Source: a candidate division KSB1 bacterium
GTDB lineage: Bacteria; Zhuqueibacterota; Zhuqueibacteria; JANLFK01; Oleimicrobiaceae
Assembly: GCA_024655945.1 (NCBI GenBank)
Contig: JANLFK010000019.1
Coordinates: forward strand, 1 to 49,345
Direction: 5' to 3'
Length of the DNA: 49,345 nucleotides
This document shows, piece by piece, positions 1-5,478 of this stretch (positions are counted from its first letter, which is position 1; the number at the start of each line of letters is the position of its first letter). The position numbers and the translations under genes were made by a program. Under the pieces are notes generated by a model. The model was not told where the DNA came from, did no database searches, and saw only the letters and a program-made list of their open reading frames with translations.

Positions 1-119
1 ATGACATCCGCACTGTCCCGGAGCTTCTCGAGCACAAGGACGTGAAAACGGCGATGATTTACACGCACGTTCTCAACCGCGGCGGCAAGGGCGTTCGCAG
101 TCCGGCTGACACGTTGTGA
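1..119 (+). CDS. intI: Integron integrase IntI, C-terminal fragment (5' end outside window)
   Basis: The first in-frame codon is at 3 and the stop TGA at 117-119, giving 38 residues. They include [20 protein letters not shown] and GVRSPADTL, the characteristic end of IntI-type tyrosine recombinases, with the catalytic Tyr in MIYTHVL and a conserved His in LLEHKDV. XerC/XerD lack the NRGGxGVxSP tail. The enzyme inserts and excises cassettes by recombining attI with folded single-stranded attC. It lies on the same strand as the cassettes that follow, so this would be a reverse-oriented integrase. The patch-specific insertion that defines IntI is outside the window and cannot be checked here. 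Confidence 0.88.
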
Positions 120-235
120 CCGGAACGTAGCGGGCTGTCATATAGAAAGCATATAACACCCCGAGGGAGCTAGAGAAACAGGATGAATTCATTGGCAATA
201 CAGGATGTAAGAACGGATACACACCGGTGTTTTAG

Positions 236-295
236 GCCGCCCGCCAGCGGCCCAAAGGTGATACATAGAAGCTATCTAAACAAGAGTTGGGCGGC
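236..295 (+). other. Candidate attI site
   Basis: CTAAACAAGAGTTGGGC at 276-292 matches the simple site of attI1 (CTAAAACAAAGTTAGGC) at 13 of 17 positions by eye and contains the GTTRRRY crossover box at 286-292. A 7-bp inverted repeat, GCCGCCC at 236-242 and GGGCGGC at 289-295, frames it. It lies 3' of the integrase stop, where attI is expected when intI faces the same way as the cassettes. The rest of 120-235 shows no gene. Confidence 0.55.
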
Positions 296-299
296 GTGA

Positions 300-329
300 T
301 TGCAACCGTGTAGCAAGCTGTGATAGAAT
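300..329 (+). promoter_or_regulatory. Candidate promoter of the first cassette
   Basis: TTGCAA at 300-305, an 18-bp spacer, and TAGAAT at 324-329. It sits inside cassette 1, just after the attI crossover, and would start transcription near 336. That supports translation of the antitoxin from ATG 350, not from the upstream GTG at 320. Toxin-antitoxin cassettes commonly carry their own promoter. Confidence 0.5.
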
Positions 330-349
330 TGTCACTTGGAGTTAGAGAA

Positions 350-655
350 ATGGTAACCAAGATACAGCAAACACAAGCCGATTTGGTGAAAGCCGTTGCG
401 GACATCGCCGCTGCCATGCCCCGGGCGCGGACAGTGCAACTCTACCAATTTGCGCTTTTTCTCAAAACACATCCCTTACCCACCGAAGAAAGCTTTGAAG
501 AAATCGCGGCAGCTGAAGCCCTATGGGATACACAATTCGCGGCAACAGATGATGACAAACTGGCCGCACTGATAGCGGCGGTTGAGACGGAAATCAACGA
601 AGGTAAGACACTGCCGATGTTCGATGAACACGGCGAATTCATCGAACATCCATGA
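350..655 (+). CDS. Putative antitoxin of a type II toxin-antitoxin pair (cassette 1)
   Basis: A 101-residue acidic protein that I do not assign to a named DNA-binding antitoxin fold. It is predicted to be helical and ends in GKTLPMFDEHGEFIEHP. The start ATG 350 has GGAG at 338-341 with good spacing; an alternative GTG at 320 would overlap the promoter. The stop overlaps the next start (ATGA, 652-655), the usual arrangement of an antitoxin translated just before its toxin. The likely role is to neutralise the downstream ParE/RelE-like protein and stabilise the cassette array. The function is inferred from position, not from a recognised domain. Confidence 0.6.
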   Translation: MVTKIQQTQADLVKAVADIAAAMPRARTVQLYQFALFLKTHPLPTEESFEEIAAAEALWDTQFAATDDDKLAALIAAVETEINEGKTLPMFDEHGEFIEHP

Positions 656-861
656 AATCACAAACGACCAAGTCATTCTGGAAGCACTATTGGGCTTTGC
701 CTCCAGAGATTCGCCAGCGTGCACGGCAAGCCTACAAGTTGTGGCGAGATAATCCAGGCCATCCGAGTCTATTCTTCAAGCGAGTGAAAGAGAGCTGGCC
801 ACTCTATTCAGTTCCGATTGGCTTGGGATATAGAGCGCTGGGATTGCTCAAAGCGGTGTAA
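652..861 (+). CDS. ParE/RelE-like toxin, apparently truncated at its C-terminus (cassette 1)
   Basis: A 69-residue basic protein. It contains FWKHYWALPPEIRQRARQAY, then HPSLFFKRV, SVPIGLGYRALGL, the pattern of a family of small ParE-like toxins. As I recall the family, members run to roughly 85-90 residues and end in a conserved WFWIGSHxEYD-like segment. Here the protein stops after GYRALGLLKAV, and the attC site starts 8 bp later, so the last strand and its conserved residues seem to be missing. The toxin may therefore be inactive. It overlaps the antitoxin by 4 nt. Confidence 0.62.
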   Translation: MKSQTTKSFWKHYWALPPEIRQRARQAYKLWRDNPGHPSLFFKRVKESWPLYSVPIGLGYRALGLLKAV

Positions 862-868
862 TCGCTGC

Positions 869-909
869 GCCAAACGTTGGCCTGCCGCGGCCGATGCTTG
901 GCGTTGGGC
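869..909 (+). other. attC site 1, unusually short
   Basis: GCCAAAC at 869-875 pairs with GTTGGGC at 903-909 at six of seven positions. An inner stem TTGGCC/GGCCGA can form. At 41 bp it is shorter than the roughly 57-141 bp usual for attC, and the fourth base of the left box is A where a pyrimidine is expected. With the shortened toxin upstream, it may be the product of a deletion. Confidence 0.45.
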
Positions 910-4179: not shown

Positions 4180-4208
4180 AGATGGGTAGTTTTATATGGC
4201 CCAACAGC

Positions 4209-4333
4209 GCCTAACACCGGCTGCACCTGACCTCGCTTCGCTCGAAGGGAGCGGGCGCGATTTGCCCGCTTTGGTTCTGGTGTGCGAAGGAATCTTCCCC
4301 GCACCACTCGGCAGGTGAGCCAAGTCGTTAGCC
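4209..4333 (+). other. attC site 3
   Basis: GCCTAAC at 4209-4215 and GTTAGCC at 4327-4333, with inner arms GGCTGCACCTGACC and GGCAGGTGAGCC that pair nearly throughout. The 125-bp length lies within the normal attC range. It includes a further GC-rich hairpin (GGGAGCGGGCGCG and CGCGATTTGCCCGC region) in the variable loop. Confidence 0.82.
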
Positions 4334-4399
4334 GCCCCTTTGCAATCTCGGCGTACTGAGCTACAATGGTAAGCAGAAACCGTTTGGCAAGGTTATCCT

Positions 4400-4708
4400 G
4401 TGGATGTTCAGGACATTGTTGACCGCATCCGGTACAATCGTATTCTTATCACCGACCACGCCGACGAAGAAGCACAGGGAGGCCATCTATCCTTCGATGA
4501 AATCCTCTTCAGCCTCCTGCACGGCGAGATGATCCAAGATTATCTGTCTGACAAGCCTTGTCCGAGTTACCTGATCTACGGTGACAGTCTTGCTGGAGAG
4601 CCGATGCACAGTGTGTGGCTTACAATCACGCAACTCAATGGGCATTGTTGGTCACTGTGCACTGACCCTGAGCGATGGATAGATTGGCACATCAGGAGAA
4701 ACAGATGA
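4400..4708 (+). CDS. DUF4258-family protein, probable toxin (cassette 4)
   Basis: 102 residues. The N-terminal ITDHADEEAQGGHLSFDEIL and the pattern GEMIQDYLSDKPCPSYLIYG fit the DUF4258 fold, small BECR-type proteins often found next to YgiT-type zinc-finger genes as putative toxins of the MqsR kind. The start is GTG at 4400 with AAGG at 4389-4392. The stop overlaps the start of the following zinc-finger gene (ATGA at 4705-4708), so the two are translationally coupled. The toxin-first order is the reverse of cassette 1 and matches mqsRA-like pairs. Toxic activity is inferred. Confidence 0.68.
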   Translation: MDVQDIVDRIRYNRILITDHADEEAQGGHLSFDEILFSLLHGEMIQDYLSDKPCPSYLIYGDSLAGEPMHSVWLTITQLNGHCWSLCTDPERWIDWHIRRNR

Positions 4709-4947
4709 AGCCTTTTGATAAGTGTCCTACTTGTGGTGGCAACCCAGTTGAGAAGGACGTAGAGAAACTGCTCAAAGGCGGCATTCATACAGCCGTGCTC
4801 AAGGTGCGTGCGGATGGATGCCTGCGCTGCGGCGAACGATTGCATTCGGTTGAGACGGTAAGACGCTTTGAGCAGATTCGGCAGAAACTGGAAAGGCAGG
4901 AAGTCGCCGAGGTTCAGGCACTTGGTCAATCTCTTCAGGTGGTGTAG
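4705..4947 (+). CDS. YgiT-type zinc-finger protein, probable antitoxin (cassette 4)
   Basis: 80 residues beginning MKPFDKCPTCGG, with a second Cys pair in DGCLRCGER, so CPTC...CLRC would bind one zinc. This matches the N-terminal domain of MqsA/YgiT. No C-terminal helix-turn-helix is present, as in many short YgiT-type partners of DUF4258 proteins. ATG 4705 has SD AGGAGA at 4694-4699 and overlaps the upstream stop by 4 nt. The probable role is to bind and neutralise the DUF4258 partner. Confidence 0.7.
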   Translation: MKPFDKCPTCGGNPVEKDVEKLLKGGIHTAVLKVRADGCLRCGERLHSVETVRRFEQIRQKLERQEVAEVQALGQSLQVV

Positions 4948-5057
4948 GTTTACATAGCGAGGACAGGCTCGCGAACACCCGCATCCGCCTGAGGGCTTCG
5001 TCGCTGAACTCAACTTCTCGCAGGCGATGCGCAGGCCGTGAGGCAACGCCGGAGGAG

Positions 5058-5412
5058 ATGGGCATGACGAGACTCAGAACCAAGATCCTCGGAGGCACCG
5101 CGAGCGTCAGGACTAATCTGGCGCCGGGAACAAGAGTAAGGGTGAAGGCTATTCCGGATGAAATGGTAGACTTGGCGGCCGACATTGCTGCCGAGTCCTC
5201 CGTGACCGACACACTTAGACAAATGGGTCTTGACATCAAGAACGCGAAGGCCCTTGATGCCTTGAAGGATTTCGCGCGCCATAGGGAAGGGTTCCATCGA
5301 AGACAAGATTCCTTGGACCGAAACAGTCGTTTCGGCCACTGGCGAGGTCTTTGTCCCCGCAGACTGGCCCCACGGCACAGAGGTAACTCTGCGTATCGAG
5401 GTGCGGACCTGA
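5058..5412 (+). pseudogene. Frameshifted small cassette protein
   Basis: The plus frame from ATG 5058 (SD GGAGGAG just upstream) reads MGMTRLRTKILGGTASVRTN through to ALKDFAR. It then loses protein-like character near 5274, while the adjacent frame continues AIGKGSIEDKIPWTETVVSA through to TLRIEVRT and stops at 5412, seven bases before the attC. The second frame has a stop at 5263-5265 and no start codon of its own, so one protein of about 117 residues has been split by a frameshift in the GCGCGCC stretch at 5274-5280. A skipped extra base restores the frame. I do not recognise the family. The loss could be real or a sequencing error. Confidence 0.55.
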
Positions 5413-5418
5413 CCGCAA

Positions 5419-5478
5419 GCCTAACAATAGCATGCAGCGGACCGCGCTGCTCGCTGCCGCTGAGGCTGAGCGTTAGCC
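5419..5478 (+). other. attC site 4, last site of the array
   Basis: GCCTAAC at 5419-5425 and GTTAGCC at 5472-5478 with inner arms GCAGCGG and CCGCTGAGGCTGAGC. At exactly 60 bp it is a classic '59-base element'. It follows the stop of the last cassette gene by seven bases and ends the recognisable array. Confidence 0.88.

Follow-up and report, generated by a model that had tools for sequence, protein, structure and literature searches.

An Integron of Reverse Layout With a Probably Inactive Integrase in a Candidate Division KSB1 Bacterium

Introduction

Does the left end of contig JANLFK010000019.1, from a candidate division KSB1 bacterium, hold an integron in which the integrase gene (intI), the attI site and the gene cassettes all read in one direction, and how unusual would such an arrangement be? 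The layout of an integron governs the expression of intI and of the cassettes, and the usual description is of a divergent arrangement. The window analyzed here is that entire contig, 49,345 bases long and one of 26 in a genome of 3.94 Mb; this genome is called G000 below and its congeners G001 and G002, contigs carry C-numbers (the window is C19) and surveyed intI loci carry L-numbers. An integron with the reverse layout is confirmed in the window. We consider it quite probable that it is chromosomal, located most likely between argG and a kinase gene, and that its integrase is now inactive. Reverse-type integrons are already a known kind, and the window is a good, unsurprising further example.

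Results

Layout and attC Sites

The initial annotation had placed the C-terminus of IntI, a candidate attI and four cassettes on one strand, and this holds, as the IntI tail at 3-119, the core sites and the attC sites are all on the plus strand. Positions 3-119 encode the last 38 residues of IntI, of which 3-116 match TIGR02249 positions 278-315 (E 2.3e-13); the match falls under the curated cut-off of the family because it is a fragment, and since the window is a whole contig, intI is cut at the contig edge.

The attC sites were located with an arm profile whose seeds came from arrays of which the direction had been fixed by open reading frames (ORFs), in a leave-out version of 35 seeds that excluded the window and its genus and with a lower length limit of 48 nucleotides (nt). 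Three sites with R″, L″, L′ and R′ in one orientation lie on the plus strand at exactly the positions first proposed (Table 1). Their scores, 49.6 to 63.1, compare with 20.6 for the next-best place in the window and with a maximum of 31.3 in 60 first-order Markov sequences of window length, which gave 56 matches of at least 20 and two of at least 30. The fourth site, that of cassette 1, is degenerate: it is shorter than the length limit, its own score is 6.2 and its folding is no better than that of shuffles (104 of 200 as good). Bottom-strand DNA folding of the other three gave z values of −1.97, −2.22 and −1.16, so that folding energy by itself is weak evidence. A palindrome-only scan located these three sites without their strand and gave its top rank to another palindrome (23269-23353); it was replaced by the arm profile. 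An Rfam scan of the window at gathering thresholds gave no matches. We found nothing to favor the reading that these are chance palindromes beside a phage-type integrase and no integron at all, and it is vanishingly improbable, given attC scores far above simulation and an intI copy on C9 whose match to TIGR02249 reaches E 2.3e-72 (244.1 bits, the cut-off being 265; this copy too is a fragment) as against only 2.3e-20 and 2.2e-18 for XerC/D.

The attI Site and Its Counterparts in the Genus

The attI site appears to adjoin intI, with its core at 286, two candidate boxes (A and C) and a near-constant distance from the intI stop to the core G: beside the 167 nt of the window stand 166 nt at G002:C2, 174 nt at the start of C10 and 168 nt on C5, the core having been picked by eye at each of the four copies. 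A self-alignment for direct repeats was not significant and was dropped in favor of a 21-nt box profile built from six intI-proximal copies. With this profile box C of the window outscores every shuffle (Table 1) whether or not window box A is included, the second box of G002:C2 stands 6 nt before its core (P 0.002), and in three of the four intI copies one of the two best-scoring boxes stands about 35 nt ahead of the core. We infer that IntI once acted at these boxes. Circular cassettes would have been inserted at the attI core (G286^TT), 167 nt past the intI stop and behind repeated IntI-binding-like boxes, and successive cassettes would have been stacked toward the kinase gene, with intI, attI and the four cassettes sharing one direction.

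The claim that attI lies 3′ of intI in a reverse layout is upheld by the window together with G002:C2, a single unbroken contig that carries a deleted intI, 166 nt, the core, a 4.2-kb cassette and an attC site (51.1), all on the plus strand. These data bear on a further possibility, that the intI tail comes from an ordinary integron with its array to the left and that the cassettes form a separate cluster of attC sites lacking an integrase. The window does have only 119 bases of intI, and other decayed copies of the gene exist elsewhere in the genome. Against this stand the same order within one contig in G002, boxes in matching places at the four copies with a stop-to-core distance of 166-174 nt, a degenerate plus-strand attC (40.7) also following intI on C5, and the last 12.6 kb of C13, the contig on which the left part of the gene probably lies, without attC at a score of 20. 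We regard this possibility as very unlikely. An attI with its core is also present 3′ of intI at the start of C10. Moreover, the window is identical to C9:385-439 over bases 1-55 and differs from C9 from base 56 onward, which puts the transition from intI tail to attI and cassettes inside the assembled contig.

Cassettes and Their Cargo

At the left end of a once-circular cassette stands a portion of its own R′. In the four cassettes R″ agrees with the start of its own cassette at 7, 10, 10 and 5 of the 11 positions past GTT, and among five cassette or array starts the own start is unbeaten for every R″, with one tie; at other loci, covering 56 cassettes, the own start does better than the next best in 43 and worse in 12, with one tie. 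This agreement gives the core G^TT sites as 286, 903, 3656, 4327 and 5472, which bound an array of four cassettes, and the pairing is the mark of passage through a circular form.

The predicted cargo consists of toxin-antitoxin-like pairs, a probable membrane protein and a Mg2+ ATPase (Table 1). The ATPase of cassette 2 matches TIGR01524 at 759.8 bits against a cut-off of 610.75 and is a complete MgtA/B-type P-type ATPase. Its cassette is unusually large: among 56 attC-to-attC intervals of less than 6 kb in our survey, one reaches 2.7 kb or more. The protein of cassette 3 matched no family above cut-off, PADLOC gave no matches for six cassette proteins of the window, and no DNA matches to the window cassettes were found in G001 and G002. 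The 4.2-kb cassette of G002 (L048:9706-13894) holds a single ORF of 1352 amino acids (aa) with a sacsin ATPase domain and a NO VEIN C-terminal domain. The same ORF matches PADLOC TmtA models (best E 1.8e-83) and is a large gene resembling anti-phage defense genes carried as a single cassette.

Table 1. Features of the integron and its right edge in the window; attC scores are from the leave-out profile.
Feature	Position	Strand	Evidence
intI 3′ end, last 38 codons and stop, cut at contig edge	1..119	+	TIGR02249 match; bases 1-55 = C9:385-439
attI region, 167 nt, intI stop to core G	120..286	+	three further intI copies in the genus have 166-174 nt
attI box A (TGTCATATAGAAAGCATATAA)	136..156	+	16 nt past intI stop
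attI box C (TGATACATAGAAGCTATCTAA)	259..279	+	7 nt ahead of core; 0/2000 shuffles match its score
Cassette 1: ORF 320-655 (no Pfam family), ORF 652-861 (ParE-like toxin domain)	287..903	+	
Degenerate attC of cassette 1, 41 nt	869..909	+	extended R″ vs cassette 1 start 7/11
Cassette 2, 2.75 kb: magnesium-translocating P-type ATPase 947-3523	904..3656	+	
attC of cassette 2	3594..3662	+	profile score 51.2
Cassette 3: 161-aa protein 3694-4179, hydrophobic by eye, probably membrane	3657..4327	+	
attC of cassette 3	4209..4333	+	profile score 49.6
Cassette 4: DUF4258 4400-4708, YgiT-type zinc finger/MqsA-like 4675-4947, ORF from 5058 without assignment	4328..5472	+	
attC of cassette 4, last of the array	5419..5478	+	profile score 63.1
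Host gene at right edge: adenosine-specific kinase (PF04008)	5518..6003	−	

The Chromosomal Site

The right flank, with the kinase gene of the window, is common to the three congeners. The same adenosine-specific kinase gene borders on a different last cassette in G001, one with an attC of 41.8 on the plus strand. In G002 the kinase gene is a neighbor of argG at 0.4 kb, and that region has no attC at a score of 20 in 14 kb. In each of the three genomes argG was identified by an NCBIfam equivalog match; in G000 it lies on C13, 1.6 kb to the left of an intI piece that is truncated by the contig end, and in G001 its contig ends 1.3 kb past argG, by eye at promoter-like sequence. Because of this synteny the element would most likely lie between argG and the kinase gene in G000, and perhaps in G001. 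Among 30 loci, viewed with flanks of at most 1.5 kb each, argG was found beside the kinase gene only in G002 and not in the other 27 loci of the class. The adjacency was considered as the ancestral state and set aside: as it is seen only in G002, gain of the integron is indistinguishable from its loss. A sigma-54-type response regulator lies near the host flank, at 7053-8402 on the minus strand.

State of the Integrase

Six pieces of intI are present in G000 (C5:251263-252191, C9:3-503, C10:236-894, C10:65789-66134, C13:127128-127561 and C19:1-119). Of the five outside the window, the one on C9 is a contig-edge fragment and the other four look broken, by deletion or frameshift at differing places: the C5 copy is frameshifted, the copies at the start and in the middle of C10 are internally deleted, and the C13 piece, which is likely the upstream half of the window intI, skips from about model residue 8 to 76, so that most of its N-terminal domain is gone, and reads AGLPRMES where G001 has AGLRLMEC (both by alignment by eye), which replaces what we take to be the first catalytic arginine. 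The congeners show the same kind of decay, with internal deletions at G002:C2 and G002:C4 and a frameshift with a stop at G001:C53. A stretch ending in RHHVHE, presumably the IntI-specific patch, is found in the C9 copy and is started in the C13 piece (PDRKYPRAPAEWRREWGFP), neither of which is joined to the window; in the window gene the patch would lie upstream of position 1. Decayed pieces of an ISL3-family transposase (PF01610) were seen just 3′ of intI at L046:553-1322 (C9) and L044:8276-8977 (C10 middle).

The exact overlap of 55 bases with C9 is typical of an assembler run at k = 55, and the window contig therefore probably begins at a fork between intI copies. An alternative to a dead integrase is that the gene continues from the window into a full-length, C9-like integrase and that the cassettes are still mobile. 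The shared 55 bases speak for such a continuation, and the 166-aa C-terminal part of the C9 copy has an open frame that keeps H, R, H and Y. At the shared right flank G000 and G001 also have different terminal cassettes, which indicates that the array changed after the species split. On the other side, synteny favors C13 and not C9, and the remaining intI copies seen in the genus appear to carry deletions, frameshifts or stops. In addition, the window tail and C9 share three changes (Q to P, G to E and T to A) in the motif TVQELLGHxDVxTTMIYTH, at positions that are Q, G and T in all 111 IntI with a readable motif among 120 other rows; the motif pattern itself requires H and YT, and, as a reservation against this comparison, 73 of the 111 (the named IntI) were partly preselected for Q and G, the 38 rows of the phylum being free of this. 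We judge an active integrase unlikely, and prefer the reading that the integrase of the window is probably dead at its own locus, in which case the array is likely frozen.

Several further observations weigh against the interpretation as a whole. C13 and C19 are not linked by any contig, the gap between them amounts to about 59 codons of intI, and the last 55-mer of C13 is shared with C10 (C10:507-561) as the first of C19 is with C9, so that the intI of the window could instead run into a C9-like copy. At attI, the direct repeats sought by self-alignment were matched by 77 of 100 shuffles; the top box on C5, 5 nt before the core, has a P of only 0.12, and on C10 the top box stands 35 nt before the core (P 0.055), the copy at 4 nt ranking second. 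The weakest-folding attC (z −1.16) is equaled by 23 of 200 shuffles. Cassette start 1 agrees better with the R″ of cassette 2 (10/11) than with its own (7/11), because starts 1 and 2 are alike. Finally, the search for a cassette promoter gave no clear candidate, with one sigma-70-like match against 0.7 expected.

Both forks lie inside intI, and the copies are about 73-79% alike yet share an exact 55-mer. Such shared 55-mers may come from gene conversion between intI copies or from a strain mixture.

Distribution of the Reverse Layout

The initial annotation had held the reverse layout to be limited to a few lineages, and this part of it is not supported by the survey. Of the 82 genomes of the phylum, 41 have IntI at E <= 1e-40. 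With attC counted at a profile score of 28, 40 intI loci of the phylum and 80 named GTDB loci, the latter being the best 80 of at least 583 confirmed and obtained with search patterns that partly preselected Q and G, were scored for layout. In the phylum six loci have attC only 3′ on the same strand, another six have it only 5′ on the opposite strand, and at 28 there is none; the named loci comprise 13 reverse, 19 ordinary, one odd (L175) and 47 without attC. The reverse layout is thus seen at six of 12 orientable loci of the phylum and at 13 of 33 named ones, and it occurs in Acidobacteriota, Planctomycetota, Gemmatimonadota, Actinomycetota (one weak site), a Synechococcus and one clade of the phylum of the window. 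The arm-profile seeds were drawn from eight of the named loci, the labels of which are therefore not independent of the profile, and five reverse labels rest on a single attC of less than 40 (L093, L099, L123, L162 and L166). A check that makes no use of attC agrees in direction: in 22 of 23 phylum rows of the clade that contains the reverse labels in a first, 124-row IntI tree, intI has its 3′ end closer to a contig end than its 5′ end, as compared with three of the 17 other phylum rows (Fisher p 3.9e-7, the clade having been chosen after the labels were known), as would be expected if repeat-rich arrays break assembly. These counts suggest that the reverse layout is common in the host group of the window.

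That the genome belongs on the Fibrobacterota-Chlorobiota-Bacteroidota (FCB) side was a sound proposal. An RpoB tree of 18 rows places it with its phylum beside a Calditrichota bacterium, the nearest named genome at 65% identity, the other named genomes being at 50-61% apart from a poorly aligned Gemmatimonadetes row at 23.5%.

A comparison with reverse-type integrases had also been proposed, and we made it with the C9 copy as a stand-in for the window IntI, its reverse label having been assigned by us. The first IntI tree, of 124 rows, had long branches, and 55 rows were dropped to leave 69. Here the stand-in falls with the reverse integrases of other phyla. The reverse clade of its own phylum (14 rows, support 100/94) excludes it, and it groups with G001 near L121 (Desulfuromonas), L122 and L123 (Actinomycetota) and L124 (Treponema), of which L121, L122 and L124 have no attC label in the survey, and also near the reverse clade of Acidobacteriota, Planctomycetota and Gemmatimonadota. 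It lies within a starred set of 20 rows, 11 of them reverse (C9 included), two ordinary and seven unlabeled. Forcing C9 and G001 into the clade of the phylum costs 41.5 log units, with p 0.035 in the approximately unbiased (AU) test for a group that was named post hoc. In the first tree the IntI-like proteins L114-L119, with an N-terminal extension and an open frame of 447-490 aa, group with Thermodesulfobacteriota and Nitrospirota sequences in a starred clade of their own; two of them have layout labels, both ordinary and one weak.

Layout is strongly clustered on the 69-row IntI tree, with five changes as compared with 14.4 when shuffled (none of 500 shuffles being as low). Once two weak rows are removed parsimony requires three changes for the reverse layout, and a single reverse clade is not rejected by the AU test (p 0.28), from which the Pseudomonadota labels L162 and L166, with one attC each (37.1 and 38.6), were omitted. 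We therefore do not claim repeated origin of the reverse layout. Inverted IntI are described as a sub-clade in PMC8352920, and PMC3607928 describes the Treponema IntI as clustering with those of Kuenenia, Synechococcus, Chlorobium and Blastopirellula, the intI of the FCB member Chlorobium phaeobacteroides being among those that cluster with the Treponema intI.

Discussion

The trees and the copies within the genus lead us to a tentative proposal, in which our confidence falls somewhat short of even, namely that one phylum has at least two separately acquired lineages of reverse integrons, a phylum-wide clade that was kept vertically and an import in the genus of the window. The import would have reached about six copies and repeatedly lost its integrase by internal deletion, with the arrays staying in place and some of them differing at the same site between species. 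The genus of the window is a natural series of integrons that retain cassettes after loss of the integrase. More generally, the survey suggests that the same-direction layout is common and is inherited within IntI clades in uncultured phyla; how often layout has switched, and in which direction, thus becomes a question that can be tested.

With ordinary chromosomal integrons (L084, L136, L139, L152 and L154) the window has in common the attC profile, the cassettes and the IntI domain, whereas their arrays are 5′ of intI and on the opposite strand. The reverse clade of its own phylum (L100, L104, L111 and others) has the same layout, with attI 3′ of intI, but its IntI belongs to the other clade (14 rows, 100/94; AU p 0.035 for the stand-in). 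The Treponema denticola-type integron, also of reverse layout, is described with 47 cassettes (PMC7691350) as compared with the four of the window, which differs further in its Calditrichota-side host, its probably dead integrase and the several decayed intI copies in one genome. As a parallel to the candidate boxes of the window, the attI of the Treponema denticola type is reported to have two direct repeats and integrase sites (PMC7691350), and some of its cassettes carry toxin-antitoxin genes.

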